Shown here: positions 1 through 61,875 of the stretch, piece after piece | How the letters are laid out: every line of letters starts with the position of its first letter | Numbering within the stretch: position 1 is the first letter of the stretch | Assembly: GCA_963555705.1 (NCBI GenBank) | Contig: OY743182.1 | Coordinates: 50,782,592-50,846,591 of the forward strand | Direction: 5' to 3' | DNA: 64,000 nucleotides | Origin: Ligustrum vulgare | Lineage: Eukaryota > Streptophyta > Magnoliopsida > Lamiales > Oleaceae | Notes under the pieces: model-generated | Database searches by the model: none | The model's input: the letters and a program-made list of their open reading frames with translations, nothing else | Told to the model about the DNA's origin: nothing | Made by a program: the position numbers and the translations under genes

Positions 1-628
1 AAAACCTTGTTAGGAAAGACCCTGTGGGACAAAACCTTAGCGAGGGGAAAAATAGTACATTATTCTCATTGATACGCCATAATTGATGCCTCATTAAAAA
101 CCTTACTAGGAAAACCTTTTGGGACAAAACATCAGTTAAGGGAAAAAGAGTGCAGAGCGTATTTGTTCCCTTCATAAGAATATCACAAGTATATTAATGC
201 AATCTCAAATCATTTCATCAAACATATAGTTTGTGATGAGCTTTTATAAATAGTTTATAACTCATTTATGATGTCATAGCTCATTTATGATGTAATGAAC
301 ATGCTATACCAAGCAATGTTTAGTTAGTTGACTGATTACATTACTCAAATCTACAATTGATTCATTTCTGGTGAAACTATCAAAATCTAGAATTCACTTC
401 TGATGAATAATTAAATATTCATTTTCAAATTCACTTCTGGTAAATATTCATTTTCGGTGGATAATATAATTTTGCATATTGAAAATCAATTGCATGCCCA
501 AATATTAAAATATAATAATAATAATACACTCCAATTTCATTTTCAACATATTATATTATGGGGTCATATGTATCATTCTTCATGTGATTTTATTTTAAGA
601 ATCACATTTCATTCTATAATGATACTAT

Positions 629-2066
629 TGTTGTCTTGTAAAATCGCAAGTGTACGATATCGCAATCAAGTAATAAAGTGACTTTTGAGTCGAGTGATCG
701 TTCCCACGAGGACTGTTTACTAAGTACCGAAATATGTCAGTTCTAAACTTTATTTGAACAGAAAAAGAGAATTTGTGATTTTAAACTAAAACTAATAAAT
801 TAAACTAAAGAATTAAATTTGCAAATTTGTTTTTGTTTTAAAAACGATTGTAAGGTAGTTGGAATTCACGAATTTACCTAACCAATTAAATCAATTCCAA
901 TTCCAGATTTGATTTTCTAAATATGTGCTCGATCGAATTCACTAATTCAAATTGAGATTCCTTTCTCGAGTTTAAATTAATCTTACCTAAATAAGTCAAC
1001 CTTGTATCTCTACAGCGGGTCCGAATATTCTTTATATAGATGCATTACACACAAGAATTCACACACGACCGCAATAATAACAAGAGTATATCTCTATCTC
1101 TCATTCAATTACTTGATTTATTACCTAGATCTATGTTATTAACTCACCTCTCGGATTATGGAAATACCACATAAAATCATGAAAGAGTGGTCAGTTCATT
1201 CACGCATTAAACACAATAATAAATCAACAAATGCATTAAAGCGTTAAAATAAGGAATACGGAATTAAAATAATTAACTAGGCTACATCGTTCATCCCAAC
1301 ATTATAATTAGTTACACATCGGAATAAAGAACACAAACAATAAAATAAAACGTTCATTGAAAATAACAAAGAAGAATGGAAAGATTGCACCAATTATCAA
1401 TTCTTCAAGTATTTTCAATTCACGCCCCTCTGCGATGCTTGAATCTTCAAGAATTTGAATTGAAATCTCTGTTGTGGCTCATTCTATGGAGAGGCAAATA
1501 TTTTATTTTCGTGCCTAATGAGTTGTATTTATAGGTTTTGGAGAGAACCTAGGTCAAAAAGCCTAAAGCCTGTTAAAAATCGCGAGAAAAATATGATCTG
1601 CGGCCCAGTCGAATAATCGCGCGATCGCGCAGGCATATTTCCGGCGATCGCGTGGTTAAGTTGTTTAGCCTCGGGTTATGATTTTGCACCTTCGTGCGAT
1701 CGCGTGGTTAGTGTCCAGTGATCGCGATTTCCATCTTTCCTCGGCCTTAGTCATCCACTTTCAATTGTTGCGATTTAGTCCCCAACTTTATATTCTTCTT
1801 GAATTTCTCAATTAAGCTCTCAATTCCTTCAATTGGGACCTCCAACCTCTGATTTGTTCACTTGAGCACCATGAACCTTCCTGGTTGACGTCACATATCT
1901 CTCACTTGCTCAATTAAGCTCCAATTAACATCAAATATTGCCGTTTTTTCCATTAATTGCTTCATTCTTCTTCGATTGGGACATTTTCTGAAAAGTAAAC
2001 AAATAAACACAAATTAAGGAGCATATATTCTAAAACGACAATAATTTCTTATAATTTATACATACA
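629..2066. mobile_element. Solo LTR (1438 bp) nested in the older LOG element
   Basis: The segment starts TGTTGTCTTG and ends CATACA. It is flanked on both sides by ACTAT (624-628 and 2067-2071), a perfect 5-bp target duplication. Removing it restores the 'gatactat..tctgggcaaattg' order found uninterrupted in the young LOG element around 60510, so the insertion boundary is supported independently. No internal domain follows, hence a solo LTR. It contains a GC-rich patch with GCGATCGCG palindromes near 1615-1735. Related sequence recurs at 53070-54549. The superfamily was not determined. Confidence 0.8.
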
Positions 2067-3671
2067 ACTATTCTGGGCAAATTGAATCTTTCAATGATTT
2101 ATACATGTATGTTCTTGCACTTTATAAACTGTAATTTCTAATTTGATGGAGTATAATCAATCATTGAAATAGATATCAGTTTCGACATATAATCTATAAT
2201 CATTTCGTTTGAAATCTCAATGTACCGCGATTAACTGGTACATCAAAGAAAACTCCCAAAGTACCGAGATGAGAATCACACTTTTTGATCTCACTCATTG
2301 GTATATCAAAGAGCTCAAACTAGTGATCTAGATTATAGTTCCATCCACCATATGTCATGCCAGTTCTTTGAAAAACTTCTAGCGCAACGAGTCGTCTTTT
2401 ACGAATGTGTAATATTTTTCATTTGTACAAATAACTACTGACATTACACATTTAAGTATTTTGGACTTCAGGTCCTATAACAATAATCCATACATTGGGA
2501 TTTTTATATTTGGCCAAAGTATTATAATTTCAAAAACCTCATTTTCTTAAGAGGGTTGTGTGTAGTCGACTTATTTATCGATTCCATTTCATCTCAATAT
2601 AAACATAACATAGAGAGATCTCTTTGTATATTCTATCATTAGGTACCTGAATCTCTCATCATTTAACTATGTCCCTTTTACTCATCATGAATATTTAGTC
2701 TCAAAAGAGATCATTTCAATTATTCAAGAGATATTTGTTTTTGGAATCGATTGTCATTATGCTTCAGGCATAATTACGCTTTAAGCTTGATCACGCTTCA
2801 TACGTGTTATTGTTTAATTTTCCCATAATATTCAAGAATATTGTATTATATCAGTCGGCTAAAAATGTCGCAACATAAGTCATTCGTTATTATGGATTTA
2901 ATCACAATTATATATCAAATGTGTATTGTTGGAGTGTATATAGATATCGCACTTCTTAGAAATCATAAAGCTTCACAAGCAAATCTTTATTTCATCGTAT
3001 TGACATGCTTGTATGTAGAATATTGCTGCATGAGAAATATTTATATTCAAGTTGTTCTCATAGCAAATATTTGAAAACTTTTAATTTGCTAAACCATTAG
3101 CAACATAATGCTATTATCTCAAATAATTCATAAAATCATTAATGACTTTAAGATATATTCATGCTAGCATTTATCACTTTGCTCGTAATATCATTACTTG
3201 AGCAAATAATAAGTCATTCATTTTCTTAGTGAGATAATCAATTTGCTTTTGAGAACAAACAGCAATGATAACTTGTTAACCTGAGCAATCTTCTGGTTCT
3301 TTAATGAATGCCATTTTGCATTCTCAATAAATCTCATTATTGAATTGGAATCTAACCAATCATGCTAAATTATAGAACTTCTGGTTTAGTAAGATATTTC
3401 ACTTGTACATATGTATGAACTTCTGGTTCAATATAATATTCATTTCATCAGTTCGTATTTCTGTATAGTGCAGATCAGTATACCTTTATTTAGTATATCC
3501 AAAAAGGTGATTAGAATGAAATCACAAGAAAATGATCATTGTCCCCACCTTTTGATTACAAATATTTTCCCTTTTCTTGGTGGAATCACTGACACACGGA
3601 GCCACCGCTCTTTTACGCGTTAAATAATGCATTTAAATAGATCACTTTGGAAGAAGATCAGATCCATCAAA

Positions 3672-4190
3672 ATGGATGTTATATTATCAAATATCCGCAA
3701 ATACTACTCAAATCTTCCCATAAATGTTTTGAAAAAGATTTACCGAGTTCGACTCGAAAGATTGAAGCAGCTGATGGACCAAGGTATCCCAAAAGATGTT
3801 CGTTGGTTGATCGAAGCAAAAGTTCGTTTAGCTGGTAAATTACCAGATTCATTTTCTAAGCACATGCCTAGCTTAGGTAAGAGTATTTTTGCAAAGAAGC
3901 GAAGAGCAAAAAGATTGAAATGTTGTTACAAATGTGCTTGATGAACATGTAATACCTGTTGTAAGTCAGTAGGATATTCATCCATAAATCGAGATGATAA
4001 GATAGACTTCATTAAGGGTGGACTGAGTAAGGAGTCATTGGATGATATCCGATTGACTCTTGAGACACACCATAGTGGGTATGTGCAGCGTGAGCTACTA
4101 TCTTTATGAGCTAAATTCATCAGCGATAAAGAGCGTTATAGTCTCAAAAATATAATAGCAAAAGACCCTGTTTGCCAATGATGTTTTTGG
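3672..4190 (+). pseudogene. Decayed ORF-A of the older LOG element
   Basis: The start codon at 3672 opens a frame closely similar to the intact 181-codon frame at 58503-59048: the N-terminal MDVILSNIRKYYSNLP, the basic KKRRAKRL tract, then CYKCA. The frame is closed by TGA at 3939-3941, exactly where the other copy has TGG (Trp in CARW). A second in-frame TGA falls at another conserved Trp (SLWAKF in the intact copy), and further damage follows near 4180. Function is unknown. The likeness over the whole length shows that this gene was part of the element before the two copies diverged. A possible intron-like stretch (gtaaat..attaacag) lies at about 4209-4274. Confidence 0.75.
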
Positions 4191-4507
4191 TACTCAACAT
4201 TGATACAAGGTAAATCAGTATAGTATATATGTTTTAACAAAGTATTTTGTATTTTCATTTTTCGCGTATTAACAGATGATATCTGAGAGATCACCGAAAG
4301 ATTATCCATTATGGAGCAAGATATATGCTGTCAGAGACAATATCAAAAGTGGTGTCATTTAGTCAAAAGTAAATAGCAACTTTTTCAAAAAAAAAAAAGC
4401 AGTAAATAGTGAATATTTTCAAGTTTAAAACATCTAATAATTTCGCAGTTTAAAGCATCCCAAAATAACAAGTTCTTGTAAGTTTTTCTTTCCTTATACT
4501 CTCAAAG

Positions 4508-5161
4508 ATGGAAGGACCAAAACTTCTACAGATCAAAACTATCTGTGTATTTTGTGGATCAAAAGTAGGGAAAGGTTTTAGGTATCTAGAAGCAGCAGTG
4601 GATTTAGAAAAGAAGTTGGGAGAGAAATGTATCAATCTAGTATATGGAGGAGGTAGTAGTGGATTGATGGGTTGCATTTCATAATCCGCTCAAACATAGA
4701 AAGCAAGAGTGATAGGTGTTATACCCGTTCCTTTAGCTGATATCGTAGGCAAAACACGAGGGCATGAAGTACAGACGTTATCTATCCATGAACGCATAAC
4801 TTGCATGTTATATGGTTCTGATGCCTTCATTGCCATGCCCGGAGGTTTTTGGTACTTTAGAGGAAATCTTTAATATTACCTCATGGGTTCAATTAGATCT
4901 CCATACCAAGCCTATGGGCTTTTAAATGTTAATAACTTCTTTGATTGTTTGCTAACATTTCTTGATTATGTTGTGGAAGAGGGATTCATCTCTCCATTTT
5001 CTAGGAGAATCCTTATTTCTGCTCCTACTTTCGAGGAACTGCTGGATAAGTTGCAATCATATATTCTAATACAAGATCCAGCAGGATTAAAGATAGATTT
5101 GTCGCGAGGAAGGGGTGCCAAGCGAAAATGGAGTCCGGTTAATGTAAATTTATCCTTGTGA
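4508..5161 (+). pseudogene. Decayed LOG (cytokinin-activating phosphoribohydrolase) copy
   Basis: The frame opens with MEGPKLLQIKTICVFCGSK and keeps the LVYGGGSSGLMG motif, matching the intact copy at 57600-58253 almost residue for residue. It is broken by two in-frame stops (around 4681-4710) and by an extra base in the run of T within the conserved PGGFG segment near 4850, which shifts the frame. The C-terminal third (4883-5161, GLLNVNNFFDCLLTFLDYV onwards) is readable in another frame. LOG enzymes release active cytokinin bases from their riboside monophosphates in the cytosol; this copy cannot encode a full enzyme. It is uninterrupted by introns, as is the young copy. Confidence 0.85.
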
Positions 5162-6643
5162 ATCTCCAAAATATTGTGGGTGGTAGAGTACGGGGTATTC
5201 TTACTCTTGAGACACACCTTTAATATTGATGAGTATTTGAACTTAATCTTGTGAACCTCAAAAGGATTAGGAGTGGTGGAGTACGGAGTATTCTTACTCT
5301 TGAGACACACAAAAAAGATTAGGGGTGGTAGAGTATGGAGTATTATTACACCTAATACACACCTCTACTTTTGAGGATCATAAATGTTTCCCCCTTTTAT
5401 ATTTTGCATGTATGACTCGCTTATACTTCTTCAAGAGTAATAATAATAATTATCATTTCAGTATGTTTAGATGATAATCTTTACTTCTTCTGGAGTACAT
5501 AAGTGCTTGTGTAAGAACTTTGATCAAAACTACTTATCACAATCATATAATATTTATCTCATAATACTGATGAGATTATTTTCACATTAGCCATATCCGT
5601 GCTATCACGTGATATTATCTTATCATAAATCAACATTTTTATTGTTGGATAATTCATTTTTATCTATCTTTTCAATACAGATAATGGTAATTTCTGGTAC
5701 CGTTTGATAAAATATTTTTATCAACATTCACCAACTTTTTGGTAATGATAACTTCTGGTATCATTTGATAAAATATTATCTAACTTTAGTAGTGATAACT
5801 TTTGGTACCATTAAATGAAATATCAAATAACAATAATATCGTATATATATTAATAATAATAATGTTGGGGTTATACCACCACGTATATATGTTGATAATA
5901 ACCTCTAATATGTTAGAATTAATCAATAACTGAGGTGTTTTTGAAATAATATAAAATTTGAATATATGTAAAATATTCCATGTATTCAATTGATAGACCG
6001 ACCATATAGGCGGTGTCAACATAATGAAATAATTATCTTTCTTGAGTGAGCGAATCATATCTTCAAATCCAGTCAAGGTATTCATAATAGTCCAATTTGT
6101 TATGATAATAAGTCATATCCAGTTAAGGTATAAATTCAGTCCATAATAACTCAATCCATCACGGTATGACAATAATTATATTACTTATACCTTGTTTAAA
6201 CTCTTTAATTTATTGATCACAGATTAATGTTAATTAGTTATGAATATTGTTAATGCTAATCATATAATTAATATGCATAATTATAATGAAACGATTTAAA
6301 ATCTTACCACTATACCTACCAAGTTGGTGGACTTTTGTTAATTTTCACCAAGTTAGTGTTGGACACCATGATCACAACTGCAGCCGTGCCTTTAATCTAA
6401 ATTTTCACAAATCTCCCGAGCATGAAACAGCTTTTCTCTTCTCATTTTTTTTCATCAAAGTATTCATCTTCAAGATCAATTTTGCAATTCCAGCAGTCTT
6501 AGTAACAATATAGGATTTAATTGAGTGGTTCGCAATGATTAATAATAATCAGGTTTCTGATACAGATGTTCATTATTTAGATGCAACTGTAGAGCATACT
6601 CCCATCATATTACTCAATAGGCTAGAGACTCGTGCTGATAACG

Positions 6644-6841
6644 TGTTGTGAAACTACCATAATAATAATACTAGATATAGGATAGAGAGATATAGAGATG
6701 AGAAGAGGAGATAATTCTCATTCCATAGGTGTATGAAATACAACATTAATGAATGCTTCTATTTATAGGAAATTCTATATGGGCAAAATAGTCATTAATA
6801 TAATAATTTATATTATAAATTAGGTAAGGAATTTTATAACA
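6644..6841 (-). repeat. 5' LTR of the older LOG retroelement
   Basis: This is 198 bp that reads, on the minus strand, TGTTATAAAATTCC ... TTTCACAACA, so it has TG..CA ends. It contains a TATA-like 'cctataaatag' around 6770, matching the position of 'cctataaatag' in the LTR at 55469. Immediately inside (6625-6643) is the minus-strand reading 'cgttatcagcacgagtctc', identical to the sequence next to the 5' LTR of the complete copy. The five bases outside (6842-6846, taaac) are the expected target duplication, but the partner end is not in the window. Confidence 0.8.
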
Positions 6842-18288: not shown

Positions 18289-18720
18289 GATCTTAAGTAT
18301 TTACCCCGATGCAATAGCTTTGTGTACTTTAGTGGGAAGGACAATTTTGAGGCTCCCTGGGTCCCCTCTTCGATCACGCAATGGAAAGAAAAGTTATCTT
18401 TATAAAATCGCGAGAAGGAGAGACTATATTGTGGCCGACCTTTATGAGGCCTGACGTTGATAGCTTCAATAGGATGGGGAATTTAAGTGAAAAGGCTATA
18501 ACTGAGCTCATGGGCAACGCTGTAAGGGTCTGTGACTTTGGTCTATTGGTTGAGGAAGCCTTAGATTTTATAAATAATTAAATTTTAGATCTGGCCGGCC
18601 TCGACCTTCAGCTCGGTATGGTTCAGCCTCTTATATTACGTAACCTAAATACCCGTCCTTCTTTTCTCTTTTCTTTACTTTTTATGTTTCCAAGATATGC
18701 TATTACCATCCCCCCTTTTT

Positions 18721-26400: not shown

Positions 26401-28228
26401 CAGGGCATCTCTTTCCTCTTTCAAGGAAGAAATTTCTCTCGAGAGATCCTGCCCCCTTCTGTTCTCTTTCACAATCTGCTTACGAAGAGTCTGCAGTTCT
26501 AAATCTGACATCTCTACCTGCCTGGATAAAGCAGCAAGCTCAGATTTGAATTTCTCAATCACAATACCTGAAGCCTCTTGGGATTGTTCCTGAAGAATGA
26601 TTTCCCTCGGAGTGCTTGAAGCACCATCAGTACTTGGCTCAAAGGCAGAACTTCCGAGACATTCCCATTGTGTCTGATGCTCGTCATACATAGCTGTTGG
26701 TGCATCCGGTTTTGGTTGTCCACTAGGCTCGTGATGGGAGTTCTTCCTCAGGGATTCCCAAGGTGTCTCAAGTCCCGAGCTGCTATCAGAACTCGACATT
26801 GTAATATCAGATCCACTAGATGCTCTGCAGTTGCCATTCAAGTGGGGAACAGTGTTATTGAAAGGCACATCCTGTCAAAACCAGATAGACCACATGGACT
26901 GAATTATCATCAATATTCAAGTAAAACCGCATCTAAAAGATCCCAAGTTTTTCATTTCTTGTACAAGAGGGAGAGGGAAAAAAAAAAAAAACCCAGATGC
27001 ATAGAAGGAGATATCCTTATAATCCACAGTGTATTTTTAGTAACTGTGCATGAAATAGAAGAAAGTGGCCTGAGAAAGTGAAAAATTACTTCAATAGAAT
27101 TGTGTCTAACCGTCCCATCTATGTTGCCATTGCTTAAATGTGCCCTCAAGCTCCTATCTTGGGATTTCAATTTTGCATCCTCACTTTCTTCAACCTCTCT
27201 GTATGGATGCCAAGAAAATATTTATCAATCTCAGTTTAAAAACACATTAATTAAATTAGGAAAAAGGAAAGCCCGTGTTGAAGGCACAAAATAATGGTAA
27301 GGTATTCATCAGAACCTTTGATCAGCAGAGTCCTGTATCCTTTGAATTGAAACCTGTTGTCATACATAAATCAAATAAGGAATCCATCAATCAATTACCC
27401 TATCATAACATACACAATTAAAGCAGAGAAAGAGAGATTTACATGCAAGATAGCCTCTGATTTTGAATTCTTGAGGGGTAAAGACAGAGAGACCTTAGTC
27501 GTCTCAGCATAAATTGAAAAATCAATTGAAGCTTCCCCAACAACCCCAGCTTTAGATGAACCCTAAAAGTTTCAGTATAAAAGACATTACACATAACTAT
27601 CGCTTGGCAGCAAAGCAAAGAATAAAAGCTCATAGATCATTTTATACCGTTCCCACGATAAAGTTGTATATCTTCTCTTGAATCTTCCCCGATTTTGAAT
27701 CTCTATTGAGCTTCACTGTTTCATATACTGGATTCTCCCATAAACAAACCCCATCTCGAACTATTGCCTTCTCCGATTTTACGCTCGGCTTTCCAACGTC
27801 AGCAGGAACCACAGATATCATCAATGCATCCCCTCCCACCTGTGGCAGCTGCATTCATGAATAACTTATTACTTATTTCACTATTGTGTCACCAGAATTG
27901 GAAAATTTAAGTCTCCTAAATGCTGTTAAATAAAGAAACGTCAACCATTGTAGAACTGAAGCACGTTGTTAAGATTACTGAAGCACAATTATCTTGATCA
28001 AGTAGCCAAATTCAACAAGTCATATTTATTGGAAAAGATCAAGACATAATTATCATAATTTAATTAATTTCATACATTAGTCTTCAACACAATGTAAATA
28101 TTTTCTTCAATAAAAGTACATCGAATGCATGATGAAAGAGATGAAGGAACCTGAGTTGCATGAAACTGCAATCTGAATACAACTCTGAACTTGTTCTTCT
28201 CGCTCCTCCAAAGCGCCGACTTGAACAT
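23424..28228 (-). CDS. NT-C2 domain, coiled-coil (myosin heavy chain-like) protein, nine exons
   Basis: The gene is assembled from GT..AG borders that keep frame throughout: exons 28228-28151, 27848-27648, 27562-27443, 27353-27316, 27198-27111, 26871-24484, 24213-24058, 23828-23737 and 23661-23424 (3399 nt, 1132 residues plus TAG). The start MFKSALWRSEKNKFRVVF and the following QVGGDALMISVVPADVGKP and VYETVKL are the N-terminal C2 (NT-C2) domain, roughly residues 1-150. Residues about 250-970, in one 2.4-kb exon, are Glu/Lys/Gln/Leu-rich heptads, a long coiled coil, with a poly-Asp run near 440 and four-heptad repeats near 535-645. Plant proteins of this build are called myosin-heavy-chain-related; NT-C2 domains are thought to attach to membranes or cytoskeletal partners. 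No motor domain is present. It is the only intact host gene seen here. Confidence 0.9.
25470..25795 (-). repeat. 84-bp in-frame tandem repeats within the coiled-coil exon
   Basis: 'gaccaatgaatctga' and its surroundings recur at about 25540, 25624 and 25708, spacing 84 bp. They encode near-identical 28-residue units (SDSLVTIS..AHI.NLENELKKQSKE), i.e. four heptads each. Units at the edges are more diverged. Length is preserved in multiples of seven residues, so the coiled-coil register is kept. Confidence 0.9.
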
Positions 28229-30636: not shown

Positions 30637-33600
30637 TAGGGTTGTCAAACGGGTCGAGCCGGGCCGGCTCGACCTGTTTGACCGTGACTCATGTGAGTCC
30701 ACGAGCCAGCCCAAGTTCGGCCCGTGGCTCGTCCGTATGAGCCGGACTTGGGCCGGCTCGTGGGCCCTTTTTTTTCTTTCTTTCTTAAAGGGGTAATGAG
30801 ACGACTGGAATAATTGAAAATATAAAAATTTAAATAAACCCTCATCCTTTAATTCGGGCTTGGGACCGGCTACATTTAATTTCTTGTTGGCGGAGTTAAA
30901 ATTGTACACGAACAAAATGTTACATGTACAATTTTTTTATTTGAATTTGAAAGAAAGAATTAAAAATATAGAAAAATAAAAATGCATATATTATTTATAG
31001 CATAATACATAATTGTAAAGATAATAATTAATAATACAAAATAATTTACTCACCTATATGATTGTTCTCCGAATTCCTCTGCCAGAATCTCACTTATCCT
31101 ATTTTGTAACATTTTATCCGCAAACTGCCAATCCTTCAAGCACATTAAGGCCTCCAGTATGTCTTCTTTAAGCCTTGACCTATATTCAGATAACACTCTT
31201 CCATCTGCACTAAAAGCTGCCTCCGATGCTACAGTTGATATCGGAGGTACTAGTAGATCTCGTGCAATCATAGAAACAATTGGGTATTGACGCTCGTTTA
31301 GTCTCCACCACTTAAGAATGTCAAAATTATTTCTCTTGTTCTCGTCTAACATGCTAAGAAGGTCGTGTGAAAAATACGTAGTTAACTCGCTTGGAGTTTC
31401 ATCTGAACTATTAAATGTACTAGAAGAACTAGAACCACTGGCATATGTACTGGAAGTTCCCTTCATAGTCATAAGGTAGGAAAGTAAATCACTGTCTTCA
31501 TTTTGTATCACATTACTTGTGAGAGCAGTTCTTATAACATTTTTGCCTGACTTTTCGGCATTGAGCTCGTACATTTGACATAAACATTTTTCTAAATCTG
31601 TACATGTCAACGGAGTCTCAAAAGTTAATTTATTTGATATTGCATTTATGGTGTGTTTAGTTCCCTCTAAATTTATTCTAGGGTCTATAATCGTTGCTAA
31701 TGGAAATAAAGTGGGTACATTTTCCCAATATTTTTTAAACTTAGTCTCCATTAATGAAATGATTTGCTTAAAAATAGGAAATTTTCTGTACTTGTTAAAA
31801 TTATTAGCAATGCAATAAAAATACTTCAACCCTAAAGGACTAGTGGGATAATAAACACCAGATAATTCGTTTGTAGTATCGTAAAAGGGTTTCAAAAAAG
31901 TTTTAACATGAAAAACAAGTTCCCAATCATCAGCCTCCAAATCAAAACTTGGGCCATGTGAGTGCCGACCGTTGTAATATTCACATATTAAATTATCGTA
32001 ACCTTGACAGTGTTCAATCATTAAATAAGTTGAGTACCATCTATGCCCTACATCTGTAACAAATGATCGTGCTGGCATACCATTTTCTACACAATGTGCA
32101 TCAAAAGCTTGTTTTCTAGAAGGTGCTATCATAATGAAATTGCAAGCACACCTAATTTTTCTCAATTGATTTTCTATATGCTTAAGACCATCTTGAACTA
32201 TTAAATTAAAAATGTGACACACACAACGAACATGAAACAAGACTCCATCAAATTCATGATTATGTGGTTAACTAATCTATTTATCACTGCTTTATTAATA
32301 GAAACATTATCTAGTGTAAAACTACGAACTTTACTATCACAGTTAAATTCTCTAAGAATTGCAAGTAGTACATCGAAAATATTTGTTGCATTATGTGGGT
32401 AATCAATAACTTTAAATGTCATAATTTTTTTGTTCATTAACCAAGTATTATCAATGTAATGACAAGTAACAGCTACATAACCTCTATGATTATTGCTAGT
32501 CCACAAGTTCAAAGTAAATGATAAGTTACCATTATACTTATTTAAAGCATCTATAAAATTTTGTTTTCTCTCGAAATATTTATTGATGCAATCAGCTCGT
32601 AAAGTATTTTTAGAAACGGGTTTGTACTAGGATTGGAGATACTTTTGAATGAATTCTGTGAATTGTGAACTTTCTACAATTGAAAGCGGGAACTCACCAC
32701 TCGATATGAACATGACCATCCCTTCTCGATGCGCTAGTTCTTGCTTGAAGACCCAATTGGTTAGACTCGATTGACCAAACTGTAGAGTTGATTGGTTTGC
32801 TTCAACCGAGCCAGGTTTTCGACATGCTTTACAGTGTCTGTTGAGGTGTGTTGTGCCCCCACCCTTCTTCCAAGAGAAAAGTTCTCCGCAAGTTTTACAT
32901 TGTGCTTTGAATACTGGATTCCCATCAGCGTCGATGGCTGTTGTTTTAATCAATTCGAAAAAATTCCTGCAGCTCGATTTTTTCACCCTTTTTGGATTAC
33001 TGCTGGAGCCTGCCGTCGTGCTAGAGGAGCCAGATCCATATGTAACAGCAACATCTTCATCAACAATGTCATCCAAATTAATATGAGTTCTAATATCTAT
33101 ATCATCGATCTCATTTTCCAAATCCACCAAATTTTCAGGAATTGGAATATTATTGAGACCGAAAAATTCATCAACAAATTGGTTAGAAGAATAACCATGA
33201 GATTGTGAGTGTACCATTAGAAGTAATGAATTTGGAAATTTGAAATTGGAGATGGAAATGAAATATGAAATTTGAGACAATATTATAAATGAAAACGAAA
33301 TATTATATGCTATGGCACTACAAATTAGAATTTAAGTAGAAAGTAGAAATGTAGAATATTGCCAAACGGTCTTGTGATCGTTTGATCCCAAATAGTCACA
33401 TGATCGTTTGGGACGAGCCGGATGGGCCGGCTCGCGAGCCAACCCGTCCGGCTCGTGAGTCCGACGAGCTTGGGCTCGTTATAACGAGCCCAAATGAGCT
33501 GGACCATTTTCGGCCAGTGGCAGTCCGTTGGACTAGTCCACGAACTTTAGGAGTCGAACTCGAACTGTCCAATACCCAAATTTTTGGTCCGGTCCAAGCC

Positions 33601-45691: not shown

Positions 45692-48600
45692 CAGTGGTGG
45701 ATCCAGCCGACGAGTCCAGCTAGAGCGTTGACCGTTGACTTTGTGATCGTTGACCGACGTTACCTACGAATGTCAACGATCGCAGTATCGAGATTGTAAA
45801 TATTTTTTAATGTAATAATATTTAAAAATGAATAAATAGGTATAGAAATGAAATAAAAAGTTGTAATGAAATATATAAACATATAATTCAATACAAATCA
45901 GAATAGATGAAAAATACATGACATTGACATTAATCGGTATTCGTTTGCTCAGACAATTGCATTCTTAGGGGTCTGATATTTTGGAAACGCTGCAATATTG
46001 CCTCATTCTCAATCTTCTTAAAAATGTCTCGCTCCGTGTACACAACCAAATTGTCATTCAACCATTTATCTCCCATTTTGTTGCGCAAGTCACTCTTGAT
46101 TAAATTCATAGCAGAGAATACTCTTTCAACACTTGCAGTTGCCACAGGTAATATCAAAGCCAATGTGATGAGCCTATAAACCAATGGAAAATAACAAGAA
46201 TTCACTGTTTCAACTAATTTTTTAGATACACATGATATGCTGTTGAGGTTAAAGAAAGCTTTCTCTGACGTGACAAGTATAAAAAACTTATCAAGTTCAG
46301 GTCTAAGTAATAACAACTCTTCATAATTGAAGTTTGAAAGATAGAACTCAGCAAGACGTAGCAATTTAGCTGTATCAAAGGCTGCAAATGAATCTTTCGG
46401 ACTCAAACATGAAATGCAGATAAGGAGCTCAGTAGTTGTCTCTGAAAAACGATCGTTCAACTCTTGCAAAATTGAGTCTATAACATGACAGTACAAATCA
46501 ACATAAAAACGATGATAATATGTCACCTGCTGAGAACCTCCACGTCTTGTTGATCGACCTTCCACAACCATAAATCCTCCATGATAGGCACTCTGATATT
46601 TTTACCAACGCAAAACTCAATCACCCTATCCAATAATTTATTCCAACCATTGTCCCTCATGTTCTGCAGTGTACACTTGACCACATTTAACAATCCCATA
46701 GCATTCTGAATATCCTGCTCCTTTTTTTGTAATGCTTGTGAAAGATTATCTGTAATGGCAAGAATGTCAAACATAAAATGGAGACAAAAGACATATTCAA
46801 AGGTTTGCATAGTGGTCATATGTCGATCGGCCAATGCTCTTTGATCTACAGTTGGCCCATCTTGTGATACAATATCAAGAACATCTAAGATATTATTGAA
46901 CATACTAATAAAACGAGTGACTGTGAGTAGATGCGAGCCCCATCTAGTGTCGCCAGGTCGTGCCAAATTCATTTCTTGAAACATTCCGCTGCCACTACAA
47001 ATTTCTCCAAGATTGAGCCTCTTCACAATCTCGGAATGATAACTTGCTCGAAGTGCATCTACACGCTTACATGACACCCCCACTAGACTCACAACGCTAG
47101 AAAGCACATTAAAGAAATCACCAACCAATATAGTTCTACGTGCCACCGAAACAATTGATAACTGAAGTTGGTGAGTAAAACAATGAACATAAAAAGCGTA
47201 GGGATTTTCCCTTAAAATCAAAGCTTTTAATCCATTGAACTCACTAGACATGTTGTTTGCCCCATCATAACCCTGACCTCTCAGATTAGATATGCTCAAA
47301 TCATGTGTAGCAAACATTGCATCGATCGCATCCTTAAGTGACTGTGCACAAGTGTCGCTAACATGTGTTATGCCTAAAAAATGCTCTCTGATTTGTCCAT
47401 ATTTGTCTACAAATCGTAAAACAACTGCCATTTGTTTTGTCACGGAATTATCACGAGACTCATCAACCATGATTGAAAATAGAGAATCACTCATCAGTCT
47501 CATCTCATTCATGATAACCTTAGTCGTCTCAACTGCACAGCAGTTCACCAAATCCTTTTGGATTGAGGGTGAAGTCATTTGGTCATTTCCCGGTGCATTA
47601 CCAAATACCGAAGCCTTGACTTCCTCACAACGAGATGCATGTCATTCTAGTAACTCAAGTAGATTACCTTTATTAAGTGAATCTTCTGATTCGTCATGCC
47701 CACGAAAAGGCAACCCTTGCATCAAAAGGTATCTAGTACAATCTAGTACCACAGTCAACCTCGTCCTATAAATTTTCTGTTGTGTACTACTTTGGCTACG
47801 CATAACATAAGCAATATTTTGTCTTTGATTCTTCAAATTGTTGCATTTCTCAAAAGTTATATTATGAGCACTATCCACAAGACCGACATGATCTCTTATA
47901 ATCTTTTTATGGCTCCAATCTCTATATCCATTCTGAGTGAAAGTATACCCACCCCCTTGACATCCCCTATCAGGTTTGAACAAATAGCAATACAAACAAT
48001 ATGCAGCATCCTTTTCTACACTATACTCCAACCAATAAAATTTATTGAACCATTCTTTCCTAAAACATCTATTATCCTTTCCCATCAGTCTTCTTGGAAA
48101 GTCATGTCCGTGTGGTTGACAAGGGCCTTTCTCTAAGTATGCCATCCTAACATCATCTCTAATGTTAGGGTCATATGACTCGATTGGGGGCCGTTTCCCT
48201 AGATCCGATACTAGTTCATCCATATTGAATTCAGTGTGAAATTTCTTTGTGTTGTCAAATTCTACTAACTCAAGTGGTCTACTAGAATCAGTTGCAGGAC
48301 CATTAGAACTAGAACCACTAAGTTGAGATTTACGTTTAGGTGGAAAAAAAACGTTCCATAATCTGTAAATCAGTGATAACAAATCAAATCAAATATTCAC
48401 AAAATCTCAATTCATTAGTTATAAATCAATAACCACATTTCACAAATCAAATCATATTTTCATCTCAATAATCTCAACTTACAAATCTAATCACATTGTA
48501 AAAACTTAAGTATAACATTTATGATTTATGCATAATTCCCAAATTAATTATAACAAATCAAAATTTGGCCTCTCAATTTTTTCTAATTATAAAACTTACA

Positions 48601-55320: not shown

Positions 55321-55468
55321 ATAATAAAATGTGATGAGTAACGAAGTTGAGGATAAGAACGTGTCGAAGAAAATTGAGGACAAAAGTACGGCAATATATA
55401 AAGCAGGTTTAAAACCTTCATTGCATTTGCAACCAAAATTAAAGAAATAAATAAATAATGATGACAAT

Positions 55469-55676
55469 TGTTATAAATAATGTATATATGTGAATGACAT
55501 AACCATTATATCCCTGTAAACTTTACAATATTACGATTGTGCCATTGTCCACTCCTATAAATAGGAGCCTATACTTACCAATTTATTACACCAATTCTTG
55601 AAGAGAAATTCTCTCCTCTAAACTCTCTCCATTTCTCTCTCTATGTTGTTCTTATGATTTCGATGATTTTATAACA
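55469..55676 (+). repeat. 5' LTR of the young LOG retroelement
   Basis: 208 bp, TG..CA. The TATA-like 'cctataaataggagc' (about 55554-55568) gives a probable start of transcription some 30 bases on. It matches the 3' LTR at every base I compared. Confidence 0.95.
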
Positions 55677-55695
55677 CGTTATCAGCACGAGTCTC
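55677..55695 (+). promoter_or_regulatory. Putative primer-binding site
   Basis: 'cgttatcagcacgagtctc' directly follows the 5' LTR and is identical in the older copy (minus strand, 6625-6643). It partly resembles the TGGTATCAGAGC initiator-Met tRNA complement; the match is imperfect, so the primer tRNA is not certain. Confidence 0.6.
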
Positions 55696-55811
55696 TAACC
55701 AATTGAGTAATAACGGAAGTATGCTCTACAGTTGCATCTAAATGATGAGCCTCTGTATCAGAAACCTGATTATTACTAACCAATGTTTCCTTTTCTCTCA
55801 AACTGAAAAAG

Positions 55812-56110
55812 AATGATTCTGGCCGATCCAGATATCCGATCGACGATCGGCCACCGCCATCAGAACGGGCTTGTCAAGGAGAAGACTCGCCTAAAATTTG
55901 GCGCAGAACCAACGGCTGAAACAAAAGATATCGACCGAAGAAGAAAATCTGAAAAACTGTGCAAAAACAGATATCTGACCGAAAATTGAAATGCTTATTC
56001 CGGACGATTCTGAACTCCGATCGACGATCGGCCAGCGGCATATCAACGGGTTTTTCTAGGAGAAGACTCGACTGAAATTTGGCGCAAATCCAACGGTTAA
56101 AACGGAAGTT
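55812..56110. repeat. Two leader repeats with CCGATCGACGATCGG palindrome
   Basis: Two copies of a unit of about 110 bp, period about 181 bp, each contain 'ccgatcgacgatcggcca' (55836 and 56017), 'aggagaagactcg' and 'aaatttggcgca.a.ccaacgg'. They lie 150-450 bp downstream of the 5' LTR, in the leader. The older copy lacks them. Confidence 0.8.
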
Positions 56111-56616
56111 ATTGTCCGGAGAAGAAGATGCTGGCGGACTGAAAAATGATGATTCCGGCCAAACGGTTGATCTTTTGGAAAATCGGAGACCACCGGCATG
56201 TTCAGGACGCCGAGGCACATATTATGGTGATGGGTCAATTTTTCCGATCACCGGCGCGTGGCGGCCGGCGGCGGCGGCGCATGGCGGATCCGGCGATGAC
56301 GAAAGGCAGTTTGTCCGTTTTGATGAATTGGATTTTTCTATGATCTTATTTTTCTGTTTTGTGCAGTTTTTAAAATATTCCGGCGGTCGAACATGGCGGT
56401 TTTCTTAAAAACTGTTTTTGGAGCAATCCTGACGAGATTTTGAACTTCGGACCAAAAGTAAGTTTGTTCTAAATTAAATTTTAAACCTATTGACGGTTTC
56501 AATTTATTCATATGAGCAATATATTAAAATATGGACGATTTTGCCCTTAATAATACATACAAGTATAATAATCGTAAATTAACGATTAATATGTGATCAA
56601 TTGAATTATATTATGC

Positions 56617-56790
56617 TGCCACCTACATGGTTGGTTTTACCACCTACATGGTTGGCTTTACCCGGTTTAATTATTTCATTATGTCAATTCCGCCTATATG
56701 GCCGGTTTAATTGTTTCATCTCGTTGATACCGTCTATATGGCTGGTTTAATTATTTCATCACGTTGACACCGCCTATATGGTCGGTATAT
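56617..56790. repeat. ~40-bp tandem repeats
   Basis: About four units of 'ggtttaattatttcatcacgttgacaccgcctatat' type, period about 40 bp, preceded by two shorter units of 'acctacatggttgg'. The older copy shows a single related unit near 5993-6035. Confidence 0.8.
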
Positions 56791-57599
56791 CAATTGAATA
56801 CATATAAACACCTCAGTTGTTGGTTAATTCTAACATATTAGAGGGTTGTTGTCAACATATATACTTGGTGGTATAACCCCAGTATCGTTATTGTTAATAT
56901 ATATATACAATATTATTGTTATTTGATACTTCATTAAATGATACCAGAAGTTATCAATACTAAAGTTAGAAAATATTTTATCAAATGATACCAGAAGTTA
57001 TCATTACCAAAAGGTTGATAAATATTAATAAAATGTTTTATCCAATGGTACCAGAAGTTACCAATATCTGAATTTGAATGGGTGGATGAAAATTATTCAA
57101 CAAGAGAATGTTGATGTATGATAAGATAATATCACATGATAGCACGGATATAGCTAATGTGAAAATAATCTCATCAGTATTATGAGATGAATGTTAGATG
57201 ATAAGTGCCTGGAAAAGTTCTTGCACGAGCACTTATATATTCCAGAAGAAGTACATATTTACTCCAGAAGAAGTAAAAATTATCATCTAAACATACTGAA
57301 ATGATATTATTATTGCTCCTGAAGAAGCATAAACGAGACATACATGCAAAATGCAAAAGGGGAAAACATTTATGATCCTCAAAATTAGAGATGTGTTTCG
57401 GGAGTAGCCGTATCCTACCACCTCTGACCTTTTGAGGAAATAAAGAAAAAAGTGTGTTTCAAGAGTAAGAAATACTCCATACTCTACCACTTTAAATCTT
57501 TGAGGTACACAAGATTAATACATTGATAAAATCCTAGAAATTTATGGTGTGTCTCAAGAGTGAGAATACTCCGTACTCTACCACCACCTATTCTAGAGT

Positions 57600-58253
57600 T
57601 CACAAAGATAAATTTACATTAACCGGACTCCATTTTCGCTTGATTCCCCTTCCTTGCGACCAATCTATCTTTACTCCTGCTGGATCTTGTATTGGAATAT
57701 ATGATTGCAACTTATCCAGCAGTTCCTCGATAGTAGGAGCAGAAATAAGGATTCTCCTAGAAAATGGAGATATGAATCCCTGTTCCACAGCATAATCAAG
57801 AAATGTTAGCAAACCATCAAAGAAATTGTTTACATTTAAAAGCCCTATAGGCTTAGTATGGAGATCTAGTTGAGCCCATGAAGTAATATTAAAGATTTCT
57901 TCTAAAGTACCAAAACCTCCAGGCAGGGCTATGAAGGCATCAGAACCATATAACATGCAAGTTATGCGTTCATGGATAGATAAGGTTTGTACTTCATGCC
58001 CTCGTGTTTTGCCTGCAATATCAGCTAAAGGAGTAGGTATAACACCTATCACTCTTGCTTTCTCTACTAGAGCGGATTGTGAAACACAACCCATCAATCC
58101 ACTGCTACCTCCTCCATACACGAGAGTGATACCTTTCTCTCCCAATTTCTTTCCTAAATCCACGGCTGCTTCTAGATACCCAAAACCTTTTCCCACTTTT
58201 GATCCACAAAATACACAGATAGTTTTGATCTGTCGAAATTTTGGTCCTTCCAT
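57600..58253 (-). CDS. LOG-like: LOG-family cytokinin riboside 5'-monophosphate phosphoribohydrolase, retroelement-borne
   Basis: An intact frame of 217 residues, close to the usual LOG length. LOG enzymes cleave ribose 5-phosphate from cytokinin nucleotides to release the active base. Visible family marks: ICVFCGS (12-18), the nucleotide-binding LVYGGGSSGLMG (44-55), His-Glu-Arg (94-96, the position of the catalytic Arg; the usual Lys after it is Ile here), and PGGFGTLEE (111-119) with the catalytic Glu. The C-terminal half (SWAQLDLHTKPIGLLNVNNF) is typical. An extra tail of about 25 residues ends IKRKWSPVNVNLSL. Plant LOG genes have several introns; this one has none, so it most likely came from a spliced mRNA. 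It lies antisense inside a young LTR element, 249 bp downstream of ORF-A on the same strand. Expression is unproven. Confidence 0.9.
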   Translation of the reverse strand: MEGPKFRQIKTICVFCGSKVGKGFGYLEAAVDLGKKLGEKGITLVYGGGSSGLMGCVSQSALVEKARVIGVIPTPLADIAGKTRGHEVQTLSIHERITCMLYGSDAFIALPGGFGTLEEIFNITSWAQLDLHTKPIGLLNVNNFFDGLLTFLDYAVEQGFISPFSRRILISAPTIEELLDKLQSYIPIQDPAGVKIDWSQGRGIKRKWSPVNVNLSL

Positions 58254-58502
58254 TTTTGAAAGTAAAGAAGGAAAATGTTATTTTGGGATGCATGAACTAT
58301 GAAAAATGTTTGGCTATTTAAAACCGAAAAACTTCACTATTTACTGGTCGTTTTTCGAAAAAGTGAAGATTTACTTTTGACAAAATCATCCTACTCACCT
58401 TTCGGCGATTTAATATTTTTAACCAGCCTTTATCAAAACTCGTGAAAGGAAACAGAAAAAAATATTTTATATGTGCATATATATCAAATGATTTACCTTG
58501 TA

Positions 58503-59048
58503 TTAATGCTGCATAGCCAAAGCATCATTGTTTATAACAGCATGGCAAACAGGATCTTTTGCTATTATATTTTTGAGACTATATCTCTCTTTATCGCTGA
58601 TGAATTTAGCCCATAAAGATAGTAGCTCACGCTGCACATATCCACTAGGGTGCGTCTCAAGAGTCAATCGGATATCATCCAATGACTCCTTACTCAGTCC
58701 ACCCTTAATGAAGTCTATCTTATCATCTCGATTTATGGATGAATATCCTATTGATTTACAACGGGTATCACATGTCCATCGAGCACATTTGTAGCAACTA
58801 TTTAATCTTTTTGCTCTTCGCTTCTTTGCAAAAGTACTCTTACCTAAGCCAGGCTTGTGCTTAGAAAATGAATCTGGTAATTCACCAGCTAATCGAACTT
58901 TTGCTTCGATCAACCAGCGAACATCTTCTGGCATGCCATGATCCATCAGCAACCTCAATCTTTCGAGCCTAATTCGATAAATTTTTCTCAAATCATTTAC
59001 TGGAAGATTGGAATAATATTTGCGAATATTTGAAAGTATGATATCCAT
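58503..59048 (-). CDS. ORF-A, 181 residues, basic tract and Cys cluster, function unknown
   Basis: An intact frame starting MDIILSNIRKYYSNLPVNDL, in tandem with the LOG frame and upstream of it. It contains a basic segment KKRRAKRL (about 72-79) directly followed by a cysteine cluster CYKCARWTCDTRC (C-x2-C-x4-C-x3-C), then a Ser/Leu-rich tail. No signal peptide or membrane segment is seen. I do not recognise the family. The basic-plus-Cys build would suit nucleic-acid binding; it superficially recalls the small cysteine-rich proteins of flexuous plant viruses, but also retroviral-type or host zinc proteins, and I would not assign any. The same frame, decayed, sits in the older element in the same position. 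Conservation over 181 codons despite its divergence suggests it was once functional. Confidence 0.7.
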   Translation of the reverse strand: MDIILSNIRKYYSNLPVNDLRKIYRIRLERLRLLMDHGMPEDVRWLIEAKVRLAGELPDSFSKHKPGLGKSTFAKKRRAKRLNSCYKCARWTCDTRCKSIGYSSINRDDKIDFIKGGLSKESLDDIRLTLETHPSGYVQRELLSLWAKFISDKERYSLKNIIAKDPVCHAVINNDALAMQH

Positions 59049-59344
59049 TTTTTGATGGATCTAGCCTTCTTCCCAAATCATCTATTTAAATGCATTATTC
59101 AACGCGTAAAAGAGAGACGGCTCCGCGTGTCAGTGATATGGATTCCATCAAGAAATAATGGAATAAATTATTGAAAAGGTGAGATAATATGCCATTACCT
59201 TTTTCGATATAAGGGAAGATTTGGCGACAAGATTGAGATTATGAGATATTTCCTTGGATATTGTACCTGATTTTTCGGTATACTAAAAGTAATAAAGGTA
59301 TACTGATTTGAACTATATAGAATACTGATGAAATAAATGTTGTA

Positions 59345-59560
59345 TTGAACCAGAAGTTCATACATATGTACAAGTGAAATATCTTATTGAACCAGAAGTT
59401 CATACGTACAAGTGAAATATGTATATAGTATGAACCAGAAGCTCATAAATGAAATATACATTGTATTGAACCAGAAGTTTAGTGATATTGTATTGAATCA
59501 AATATTCATACATAGAAATGAAATAAAACCGTATAGAACCAGAAGTTCTATAATAAACGG
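59345..59560. repeat. 'gaaccagaagttcata' tandem repeats
   Basis: About six degenerate copies of 'attgaaccagaagttcatacatatgtacaagtgaaat', spacing 30-60 bp. The older element has the inverted form 'aacttctggttca' near 3378-3430. Non-coding. Confidence 0.75.
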
Positions 59561-60595
59561 TTAGATTATCAAAAGTTCCAAATTATTTTCTATGAGAATA
59601 ACTTATTCAGAAATTGTTTATCATACAACAATATTCTATGTCAAACAGGGAATAGCTCAAGAAGCTTTATTATTTGTAAAAGTGCGATATGCATACACTC
59701 CACCAAAGCGCACTGAGATATATGATTGAAATTACATCCCTAAAAGAATGACATGTGTTATGGCATTTTAGCCGATTGATAATATTTGAGAACATTATGG
59801 TGAAAACACGCCTGAAGCGTAATTATGCCTGAAGCATAATGACTATCGATTCCAAAAATAAATATCTCTTGAATGATTGAAATGATTCCTTTGAGGCTAA
59901 ATACTCAAAGTAAGTAAAAGGGACATAGTCAAATGATGAGATATTCAGGTACCTGATGATAGAACATATAAAGAGATCTCTCCACGTTATATTGAGATGG
60001 AATCGATAAATAAGTCGACTGCATACCCTCTTATGAAATAAGATTGATGAAATCATAATTCTTTGGCCAAGTATGAAACCCTAATGTAGGGATTATTGTT
60101 CAAGGACCTGAAGTCCAAATGCTTAAATGTGTAAAGCCAGTAATTATATGTACAAATGAAAAATATTTCACAGTCGTAAAAGACGACTAGTTGCGCGCGA
60201 AATTTTTCATAGAACTGGCATGACATATGGTGGATAGACTATAGTCTAAATCACTAGCTTGAGCTCCTTGATATACCAATGAGTGAGATCAAAATGTATG
60301 ATTCTCATCTCGGTACTTTGGGAGTATTCTTTGATGTACCAGTTGATCGCGGTACGTTGGGATTTCAAGTAAAATGATTGTAGATTATATGTCGAAATTG
60401 ATATCTATTTCAATGATTGATTATGCTCCTGCAAAATTAGAAATTGCAGTTTATAAAGTGTAAGAACATACATGTATAAATCATTGAAAGATTCAATATG
60501 CCCAGATTAGTATCACTATAGAATGATACAAATGACTCCATGATATAATATGTTGAAAGTGAAATTGGAGTGTACTATTTATGACATCTGGGAAA

Positions 60596-60796
60596 TTGAT
60601 TATTCACTAGAAGTGAATACGAAAATGAATATTCACCAGAAGTGAATTTGAAATTGATTATTCACTAGAAGTGAATTTGAAAATGAATATTTAATTATTC
60701 ACTAGAAGTGAAAGATGCAATCTATGAAAGTGAATTATAGATTTGATTATTCACCAGAAGTGAATTCTAAATTTGATTATTCACCAGAAGTGAAAA
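60596..60796. repeat. 'attcactagaagtgaat' palindromic tandem repeats
   Basis: Seven or so copies of TTCACyAGAAGTGAA, itself an imperfect palindrome, spaced 20-45 bp. Fewer copies occur in the older element (366-450). Confidence 0.8.
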
Positions 60797-60864
60797 ATAC
60801 AATGAAAAGATTCGTGATTGCACCAATATACATGTAATATTCCATGAAAGGAATAAATACGCGT

Positions 60865-61560
60865 TGCACTCTTTTTCCCTTAGCTGAGGTTTTGTCCCAC
60901 AGGGTTTTCATAGCAAGTTTTTTTAATGAGGCAACAGTTGAGGCGTATTGATGAAAATTAATGAGAATAATGCACTCTTTTTCCCTTCGCTGAGGTTTTG
61001 TCCCACAGGGTTTTCCTAGCAAGGTTTTTGAGGCATCATCATAGCTATCAACAAGCTATAATTCAGCAACACATTGTTATACTGGAATGATATCAACAAA
61101 TGAAGAAAATCATACACATCTTATGAAGAATGTTATGATATCGACTACACACAAGAAGATTTTCATATATATTCCAGAAGAAAGATGATATCATTATTCA
61201 AAAGGTTCATGAATACTTGATTGCACACTTCAGGGGGAGAATCATGCTGTCATGCTGTACTCTTTTTCCTTCGTCCAGGTTTTGTCCCACAGGGTTTTCC
61301 TGACAAGGTTTTAACGAGGCAGCGGCTGTACTCTTTTTCCTTCGTTCAGATTTTGTCCCATTGGGTTTTACTGACAAGGTTTTAACGAGGCAGCACTGAA
61401 GCACTGAAGAACTTCAAAGATTCAATACATGATTTGTTCTACTTGAACATTAAGACTCAACGATTGACGATGGCCAATATCAGGGGGAGCAACTGTACTC
61501 TTTTTCCTTCGCTCAAGTTTTATCCCATTGGGTTTTCTTAGCAAGGTTTTAACGAGGCAG
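60865..61560 (+). repeat. Five copies of the 'ctctttttccttcg..gttttgtcccac' 3' motif
   Basis: Copies at about 60868, 60970, 61257, 61328 and 61494, each about 60 bp, read 'ctctttttcccttcgctgaggttttgtcccacagggttttcctagcaaggtttt' with changes. They lie between the cassette and the polypurine tract. Two copies are seen inverted at 1-145 in the older element. Confidence 0.85.
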
Positions 61561-61582
61561 ACAATTGCGTAATATGTCATTC

Positions 61583-61591
61583 AAGGGGGAG
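61583..61591 (+). promoter_or_regulatory. Polypurine tract
   Basis: AAGGGGGAG sits immediately before the TG of the 3' LTR, the usual place of the plus-strand primer in reverse transcription. Confidence 0.85.
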
Positions 61592-61799
61592 TGTTATAAA
61601 TAATGTATATATGTGAATGACATAACCATTATATCCCTGTAAACTTTACAATATTACGATTGTGCCATTGTCCACTCCTATAAATAGGAGCCTATACTTA
61701 CCAATTTATTACACCAATTCTTGAAGAGAAATTCTCTCCTCTAAACTCTCTCCATTTCTCTCTCTATGTTGTTCTTATGATTTCGATGATTTTATAACA
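61592..61799 (+). repeat. 3' LTR of the young LOG retroelement
   Basis: 208 bp, no difference from the 5' LTR found by eye. Followed by ACAAT (61800-61804), the target duplication. Confidence 0.95.
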
Positions 61800-61875
61800 A
61801 CAATATAATTATCCTATCATTTAACTTTGTTAAAATTCATCTTTTCTTTGCTTTTGAGGTTAGAGATAAATTCAA

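Follow-up and report, generated by a model that had tools for sequence, protein, structure and literature searches.

An antisense NABP-LOG gene cassette in two unrelated LTR retrotransposon backbones of one plant genome

How does a long terminal repeat (LTR) retroelement without genes for its own replication come to carry an intact gene of the LOG family, whose members make active cytokinins, and what might keep such a gene intact? The question is raised by the element at positions 55469-61799 of a 64,000-nucleotide stretch of Ligustrum vulgare DNA (contig OY743182.1, positions 50,782,592 to 50,846,591 of the forward strand), which is referred to here as the window. A first-pass annotation had described it as a recently inserted, non-autonomous element with an antisense LOG gene as its cargo. 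The LOG gene is indeed present and intact, but a second intact antisense gene, which encodes a nucleic-acid-binding protein of flexivirus type (NABP), had been overlooked. Together the two genes form an antisense NABP-LOG cassette of approximately 2 kb that is found in two unrelated LTR backbones of one genome. Furthermore, LTR elements repeatedly carry NABP as an additional gene, either alone or together with LOG.

The second backbone came to light when the genome was searched with the NABP protein (P0009) of locus L083, 150 of 8543 candidates being scored. Two more NABP groups were found, the first with 9 places at 70-73% and the second with 135 of the 150 scored places (our own count). The second group has a 195-residue open frame with no stop and often lies in tandem every 6.5-7 kb. 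At L084, a member of this group, the tandem units measure 6697 bp and hold intact NABP and LOG genes, both antisense to the element. The window element and the L084 unit are alike only from about 57320 to 59380 (79%), and outside this segment their likeness is at background level. A separate copy (L086/L087) is bounded by two LTRs of 3.37 kb that are 99.85% identical, and its primer site TTGGTATCAGAGC, which we take to be of the tRNA-Met type, begins two bases past the 5' LTR. AAGAT is found on both outer sides of this copy and also before the inner LTR edge, a duplication less clean than those of the window family. The sequence TTTCGAGGACGAAATT ahead of the polypurine tract is presumably typical of Ty3/gypsy chromoviruses, this motif being the sole basis of the superfamily assignment. 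Head-to-tail arrays that bear NABP are present at L084, C22:1306460-1326780 and C23:10311325-10338630; their spacing is constant within an array and differs between arrays, one unit having been read.

The NABP-LOG order is the same at L084, L086/L087 and L085, a member of the first group. At L085, where both genes may belong to one single element, NABP and LOG stand in line and LOG is open in the same frame directly after the NABP stop. The L085 LOG (2634-3467) has the motif PGDFGTLEQ and reads HES where HER is expected; its tail is longer, contains internal repeats and still ends in LDLELRL. The frame past the NABP stop stays readable and conserved (FKPFLDVKPEEDVS, L085:3380-3500; FKPLLDVKLEEDVS, L083:2340-2420) and continues into LOG at L085, so that stop-codon readthrough or an ancestral NABP-LOG fusion is possible. 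An Orobanche gene model (P0021) consists of NABP fused to the C-terminal part of LOG. A donor-like CAAGGTAAATC lies 3' of the NABP stop in the window and would bear on a spliced NABP-LOG fusion. NABP and LOG matches also occur on contigs of equal size, of which those of 8723 and 4511 are suggestive of pairing; the equal sizes 1018, 1558 and 2128 may be due to chance and were not used. At L083 itself NABP is present without LOG, in the same sense as and downstream of an integrase frame (rve, Integrase_H2C2). This locus was the single relative in a scan of genome_contigs made with the NABP alignment only, and although its contig is placed in a GTDB 'Nomurabacteria' bin, it looks like plant LTR-element DNA that contaminates the bacterial bin.

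In the window, LOG starts 249 bp past NABP on the minus strand. The NABP protein passes the Pfam cut-offs of both Viral_NABP (37.4 bits, cut-off 23) and Carla_C4 (24.7 bits, cut-off 20.9), while those of L083 and L085 are above the former and slightly under the latter (20.4 versus 20.9). Among the NABP relatives listed, the best 120 of 335, PF01623 is given in the precomputed column for 120/120 and the motif C-x2-C-x4-C-x3-C is present in 106. The same Pfam families, with a basic cluster beside a Cys motif, characterize the cysteine-rich proteins (CRPs) or NABPs of carla-, viti-, allexi- and mandariviruses, as given in the available part of PMC12172455. The element NABPs differ in being LTR-encoded, about 180-195 residues long, paired with LOG and built on C-x2-C-x4-C-x3-C. 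No viral genome or integrated viral segment was met around NABP, its surroundings in the window and at L086/L087 being those of LTR elements. A viral genome that carries LOG was also considered: a search of viral_contigs with both proteins and both alignments gave none for NABP, and for LOG 24 loci at 23-41% identity.

The LOG protein of the window matches PF03641 (E=7.4e-34), holds the PGGxGTxxE motif and is predicted to adopt the LOG fold, as expected for the phosphoribohydrolase family. Its AlphaFold2 model has a pLDDT of 87, with residues 1-3 and 202-217 below 50, and the tail (202-217) is predicted to be disordered. The closest folds are At2g37210 (LOG3), which is also the best PDB relative, At5g11950 and bacterial type-I LOGs. 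The element LOG has its fold and catalytic motif in common with cellular At2g37210 (PDB 2a33), to which it is 52% identical over the fold alignment, but it is intronless and has an extra basic, LxLxL-like tail. A terminal LxLxL is present in 95/120 of the element-type LOG matches listed and in 0/120 of the cellular ones, and a basic cluster within the last 25 residues in 105/120 and 1/120, respectively, whereas PGGxGTxxE is equally frequent (108/120 in each). The LxLxL tail resembles EAR repression motifs. Cytokinin release would be the putative function of the element LOG. The idea of the first-pass annotation that the element is a developmental-gene vector is possible, since the LOG gene is under purifying selection and has kept its catalytic motif.

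The element has the hallmarks of an LTR retrotransposon, namely TG..CA LTRs, a primer-binding site, a polypurine tract, a target duplication and dispersed copies. The two LTRs were found to be identical at 208/208 bases, as had been reported, and the ACAAT duplication and polypurine tract were located as well. The complement of the primer-binding site matches the 5' half of tRNA-Ile(AAU), with the tRNA sequence that we assume, at 21 of 24 positions, by which the site would be of the Ty1/copia Bianca type. In the accessible part of PMC6317226, half tRNA-Ile primer sites are described for the Bianca lineage of Ty1/copia only. The reported lack of gag and pol was borne out: with all six frames read with X at stops, no Pfam match to either was obtained in the three sense frames at E<=0.1 or in the three antisense frames at E<=0.01, and the latter gave just the LOG and NABP families and one further match. 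By this six-frame search the element is non-autonomous. This further antisense match, to TyeA (E 0.0066), lies under the curated cut-off and was not credited.

The window element is a member of a large, young, high-copy family, in line with the proposal of a recent element that spreads an intact LOG. A 28-base junction of polypurine tract and LTR has 687 exact matches (345+342) in the 1.385-Gb plant assembly, and its reversed control has 0. Searches with the LTR and the LOG frame, as the first-pass annotation had suggested, likewise revealed a multicopy family and not a single host locus. All 40 LTR matches scored (40 of 254 first-look candidates) were 100% identical, and all 150 LOG places scored (150 of 9449) were 100% identical over 217 residues with no stop; this count is a lower bound because all 150 lie on contigs C1-C5, the window's own contig being C15. 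The 40 LTR matches group into 16 pairs at a spacing of 5-6.2 kb, a further pair separated by 16 kb, and 6 singles. The 5-bp target duplications match in 16/16 fetched whole copies, which together with the junction count rules out chance or assembly duplicates as the source of the LTR pairs. The pair 16 kb apart (L025/L026) has identical LTRs that enclose open LOG and NABP frames, and is outside the count of 16. L027 and L028, which cover the far side of their LTRs and not the elements, were likewise left uncounted.

The 16 fetched copies were picked up through two LTRs that both match the query exactly and are therefore biased to young ones. Full-length open LOG frames are present in 14 of them (12 identical, 2 with a single difference each); in L022 the gene is broken, and in L018 it is deleted. 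The 181-residue NABP frame is also open in 14 copies (10 identical, 4 with a single difference each), while L012 has a truncated and L018 an altered NABP. The median pairwise difference among 17 full copies, the window's included, is 0.21%, which at 7e-9 substitutions per site and year corresponds to roughly 150,000 years for a sample that leans to young copies. In L018 (C3:46046469-46051903), the LTRs of which are identical and the target duplication perfect, LOG and the final part of NABP are gone, and short filler pieces mark the deletion junction. The alignment of this copy raises the largest distance (1.17%) and the numbers of variable sites in LOG and the spacer artificially, and these values were not used.

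As to the origin of the cargo, LOG homologues amount to 7301 matches, of which 120 are listed, and many are loci scattered over the chromosomes of one plant, for example Reevesia. The sources named for the element-type LOGs include Diospyros, Reevesia, Diplodiscus, Populus, Xanthoceras and Primulina; the label is inferred from similarity and copy pattern, and LOG was seen inside elements in the loci of the present genome only. In one tree, 30 element-type LOGs (29 of the 120 matches and the window's) were separated from 18 cellular LOGs with an SH-aLRT of 100, and in a second tree 31 (28 matches, the window, L084 and L085) were separated from 18 cellular ones at 100/100. The window LOG does not group with any sampled cellular LOG, as a transduced host gene would. 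Furthermore, the same cargo is held by an older, broken copy at about 1-6770 of the window, which the first-pass annotation had missed, and the antisense cassette is present in the unrelated LTR family too. The annotation's claim of a fresh capture of a spliced host LOG transcript by the window element itself is therefore not supported.

Judged by dN/dS (Nei-Gojobori), both genes are under purifying selection when the lineages from which new copies arise are compared. Between the window and L084, 205/217 LOG residues are identical (dS 0.494, dN 0.031, ratio 0.062), and 148/181 of NABP (ratio 0.179). Between the window element and the older copy in the same window the ratios are 0.29 for LOG and 0.26 for NABP. 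Against 30 older copies, the best of 40 scored matches to one older copy, the window LOG gave a median ratio of 0.254 (0.164-0.392), while the older copies compared with each other gave a pooled 0.928. For NABP, which was long enough in 28 of the 30 copies, the corresponding values are 0.297 and 0.55. The noncoding flanks are more diverged than the genes. The low ratios against the source combined with 0.928 among older copies suggest that the genes are constrained in the copy-making lineage and drift once inserted, and the 0.55 of NABP suggests descent of the older copies themselves from more than one constrained source.

We favour, with slightly better than even confidence, the reading that selfish LTR elements exchange a selected two-gene cassette, with gag and pol supplied in trans, transcription from the cassette's own promoters and an action of LOG and NABP on the host. 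For transfer between element families, reverse transcription would switch templates among co-packaged element RNAs, a route that would keep the antisense orientation of the cassette. The TTAAATA boxes ahead of each gene would act as the promoters. LOG would release active cytokinin and/or act in the nucleus via its basic, LxLxL-like tail, whereas NABP would bind nucleic acids and blunt silencing. The latter is proposed because of carlavirus CRP activities: the available part of PMC12172455 assigns to p12 of chrysanthemum virus B a weak suppression of silencing and a role as a transcription factor that induces hyperplasia, and to another viral CRP the suppression of local and systemic silencing. 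Together, the two proteins could promote cell division and weak silencing, and the element would be transcribed in such cells and transmitted from them. More tentatively, the cassette may be a selfish means of host manipulation, in which elements of different superfamilies trade a virus-type suppressor or transcription-factor-like protein and a nuclear-targeted cytokinin-activating enzyme, and proliferating, weakly silenced cells favour germline transmission; this would be comparable to the action of gall-inducing microbes, with a parasite of the genome as the source of the genes.

Several alternatives have to be weighed against an exchanged, selected cassette. The LOG-fold protein could mainly be a nuclear regulator, the tail of which recruits co-repressors and which, with NABP, keeps the chromatin or RNA of the element expressed. 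The frequent LxLxL end of the listed element-type LOGs, the predicted disorder of the tail and the LDLELRL end that L085 holds despite its altered catalytic motif speak for such a role. We nevertheless consider it doubtful, as PGGxGTxxE is kept in as many element-type as cellular matches, and in the window and L084 families, and the LOG body as a whole is strongly constrained. That the cassette is a functionless passenger copied with a successful element would fit L018, which was amplified or survived without LOG, and the relative frequency of antisense extra open reading frames (ORFs) in plant LTR elements (available part of PMC7264820); it is disfavoured by dN/dS values of 0.06-0.30 between source lineages, as opposed to 0.93 among older LOG copies, and by noncoding flanks that are more diverged than the genes, and is improbable.

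Slightly less credible still is a host-serving gene family, in which the plant gains from an extra dose of LOG and NABP and selection acts on the host. Frames are intact in very many copies, but recent amplification accounts for the identity of the copies, and older LOG copies decay near neutrally, as expected if selection concerned element transmission and not resident copies. Recent capture of a spliced host LOG mRNA by the window element would explain the intronless frame, and yet it is extremely improbable given the 100/100 separation from the sampled cellular LOGs, the older broken copy with the same cargo and the antisense cassette with common noncoding flanks in another LTR family.

The exchange of a selected cassette also faces evidence that weighs against it. 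The pairwise dN/dS values are mutually non-independent, and NABP is not fully neutral among older copies (0.55), an outcome not expected from simple decay. The catalytic motif of the L085 LOG is degenerate, so that not every family has retained the enzyme activity, and the window LOG tail (VNVNLSL) is weaker than a strict LxLxL. L018 is young and yet lacks LOG, which indicates that the gene either is dispensable in cis or disappeared once the copy had been inserted. The NABP structure model is poor (pLDDT 65), and its viral fold matches all have E>=0.099 and are thus not significant, although the top 11 comprise 9 named flexivirus proteins and 2 proteins without a name. The cellular LOGs in the trees comprise 17 of 120 LOG1/3/4-type matches and At5g11950, none of them from the species of the window, and with this partial sample a nearer cellular parent is possible. 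An autonomous partner was not found, no effective search having been aimed at it.

LOG genes in plant Gypsy elements are already known. Steinbauerova and colleagues reportedly described LOG-like (YgdH/LOGL4) extra ORFs in two Athila-like elements in 2011. According to the available part of PMC9289625, two Citrus species and Populus have LTR consensuses with a LOG (YgdH) domain, and 15/15 unusual domains were in Gypsy-type elements and none in Copia-type ones. These Ty3/gypsy elements have a LOG domain inside an LTR element in common with the window, but the window element is small, has a putative Ty1/copia-type primer site and carries LOG antisense beside a viral-type NABP; moreover, another, unrelated backbone in the same genome carries the cassette as well, and purifying selection was measured here. 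The extra ORFs of Grande (gene23), RIRE2 and Retand are likewise antisense and conserved, that of Grande with its own promoter, but they are described as without clear similarity to other proteins, transposable elements or viruses and as having unknown functions (PMC7264820, available part), whereas both proteins of the window are identifiable. Endogenous non-retroviral RNA virus sequences of plants similarly place an RNA-virus-type gene in chromosomes; the betaflexivirus case in the available part of that survey (PMC3136472) is a replicase-like sequence in cucumber, while here the gene is intact, constrained and amplified in LTR elements. The terms cytokinin and LONELY GUY do not occur in the available part of a review on how plant elements capture genes (PMC13317346). 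No report of a NABP-LOG pairing or a cross-family cassette was found among the matches listed from the open-licence PMC literature, the viral partner and the cross-family cassette being the parts not found in print.

The extra genes of plant LTR elements have so far been without an agreed function, and here two of them are identifiable, paired, common to unrelated families and constrained. The question of whether genes of transposable elements act on host hormone signalling or silencing thereby becomes directly testable, and a virus-type gene is seen to persist in retrotransposons. In addition, some plant gene models named 'LOG' or 'hypothetical' (for example in Reevesia, Populus, Xanthoceras and Orobanche) may be element genes.

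Table 1. Coordinates of the element, its genes and the older copy in the window
Feature	Position	Strand	Remarks
5' LTR	55469..55676	+	208 bp, TG..CA; TATAAAT at 55556
3' LTR	61592..61799	+	same as 5' LTR at 208/208 bases
Target-site duplication ACAAT	left 55464..55468, right 61800..61804	.	
Primer-binding site	55677..55700	+	directly 3' of 5' LTR
Polypurine tract AAGGGGGAG	61583..61591	+	abuts 3' LTR
NABP-LOG cassette, approximate extent	57320..59380	-	likeness to L084 LTR family fades beyond
LOG (cytokinin riboside monophosphate phosphoribohydrolase family)	57600..58253	-	217 aa, intact; tail KRKWSPVNVNLSL
TTAAATA box upstream of LOG	58315..58321	-	candidate promoter
NABP	58503..59048	-	181 aa, intact; Viral_NABP (PF05515), Carla_C4 (PF01623), C-x2-C-x4-C-x3-C, basic cluster KKRRAKR
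TTAAATA box upstream of NABP	59083..59089	-	candidate promoter
Older inverted copy of window element	1..6770 (about)	-	in pieces, cut by window edge
LTR-and-leader-like part of older copy	6533-6770		
NABP of older copy	3672..4178	+	with stop codons
LOG of older copy	4508..5158	+	with stop codons and a shifted stretch

The interior of the element (55816-56129 and 60592-60810) holds a 133-bp direct duplication (80%) and short-repeat arrays around TTCACCAGAAGTGAA, and repeats of a similar kind, of ACCAGAAGTT, occur elsewhere in the interior. Apart from the two element copies, the window contains hAT-type transposase remnants with Dimer_Tnp_hAT and DUF4371 matches at 12272-14591, 31050-32267 and 46523-48388 (minus strand), and a piece of reverse transcriptase with an RT_RNaseH_2 match at 19862-20530 (minus strand). 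Possible host gene exons are an NTR2-like piece at 17612-18289 (plus strand) and an 835-residue open frame at 24367-26874 (minus strand), which has no Pfam match at E<=1e-4.

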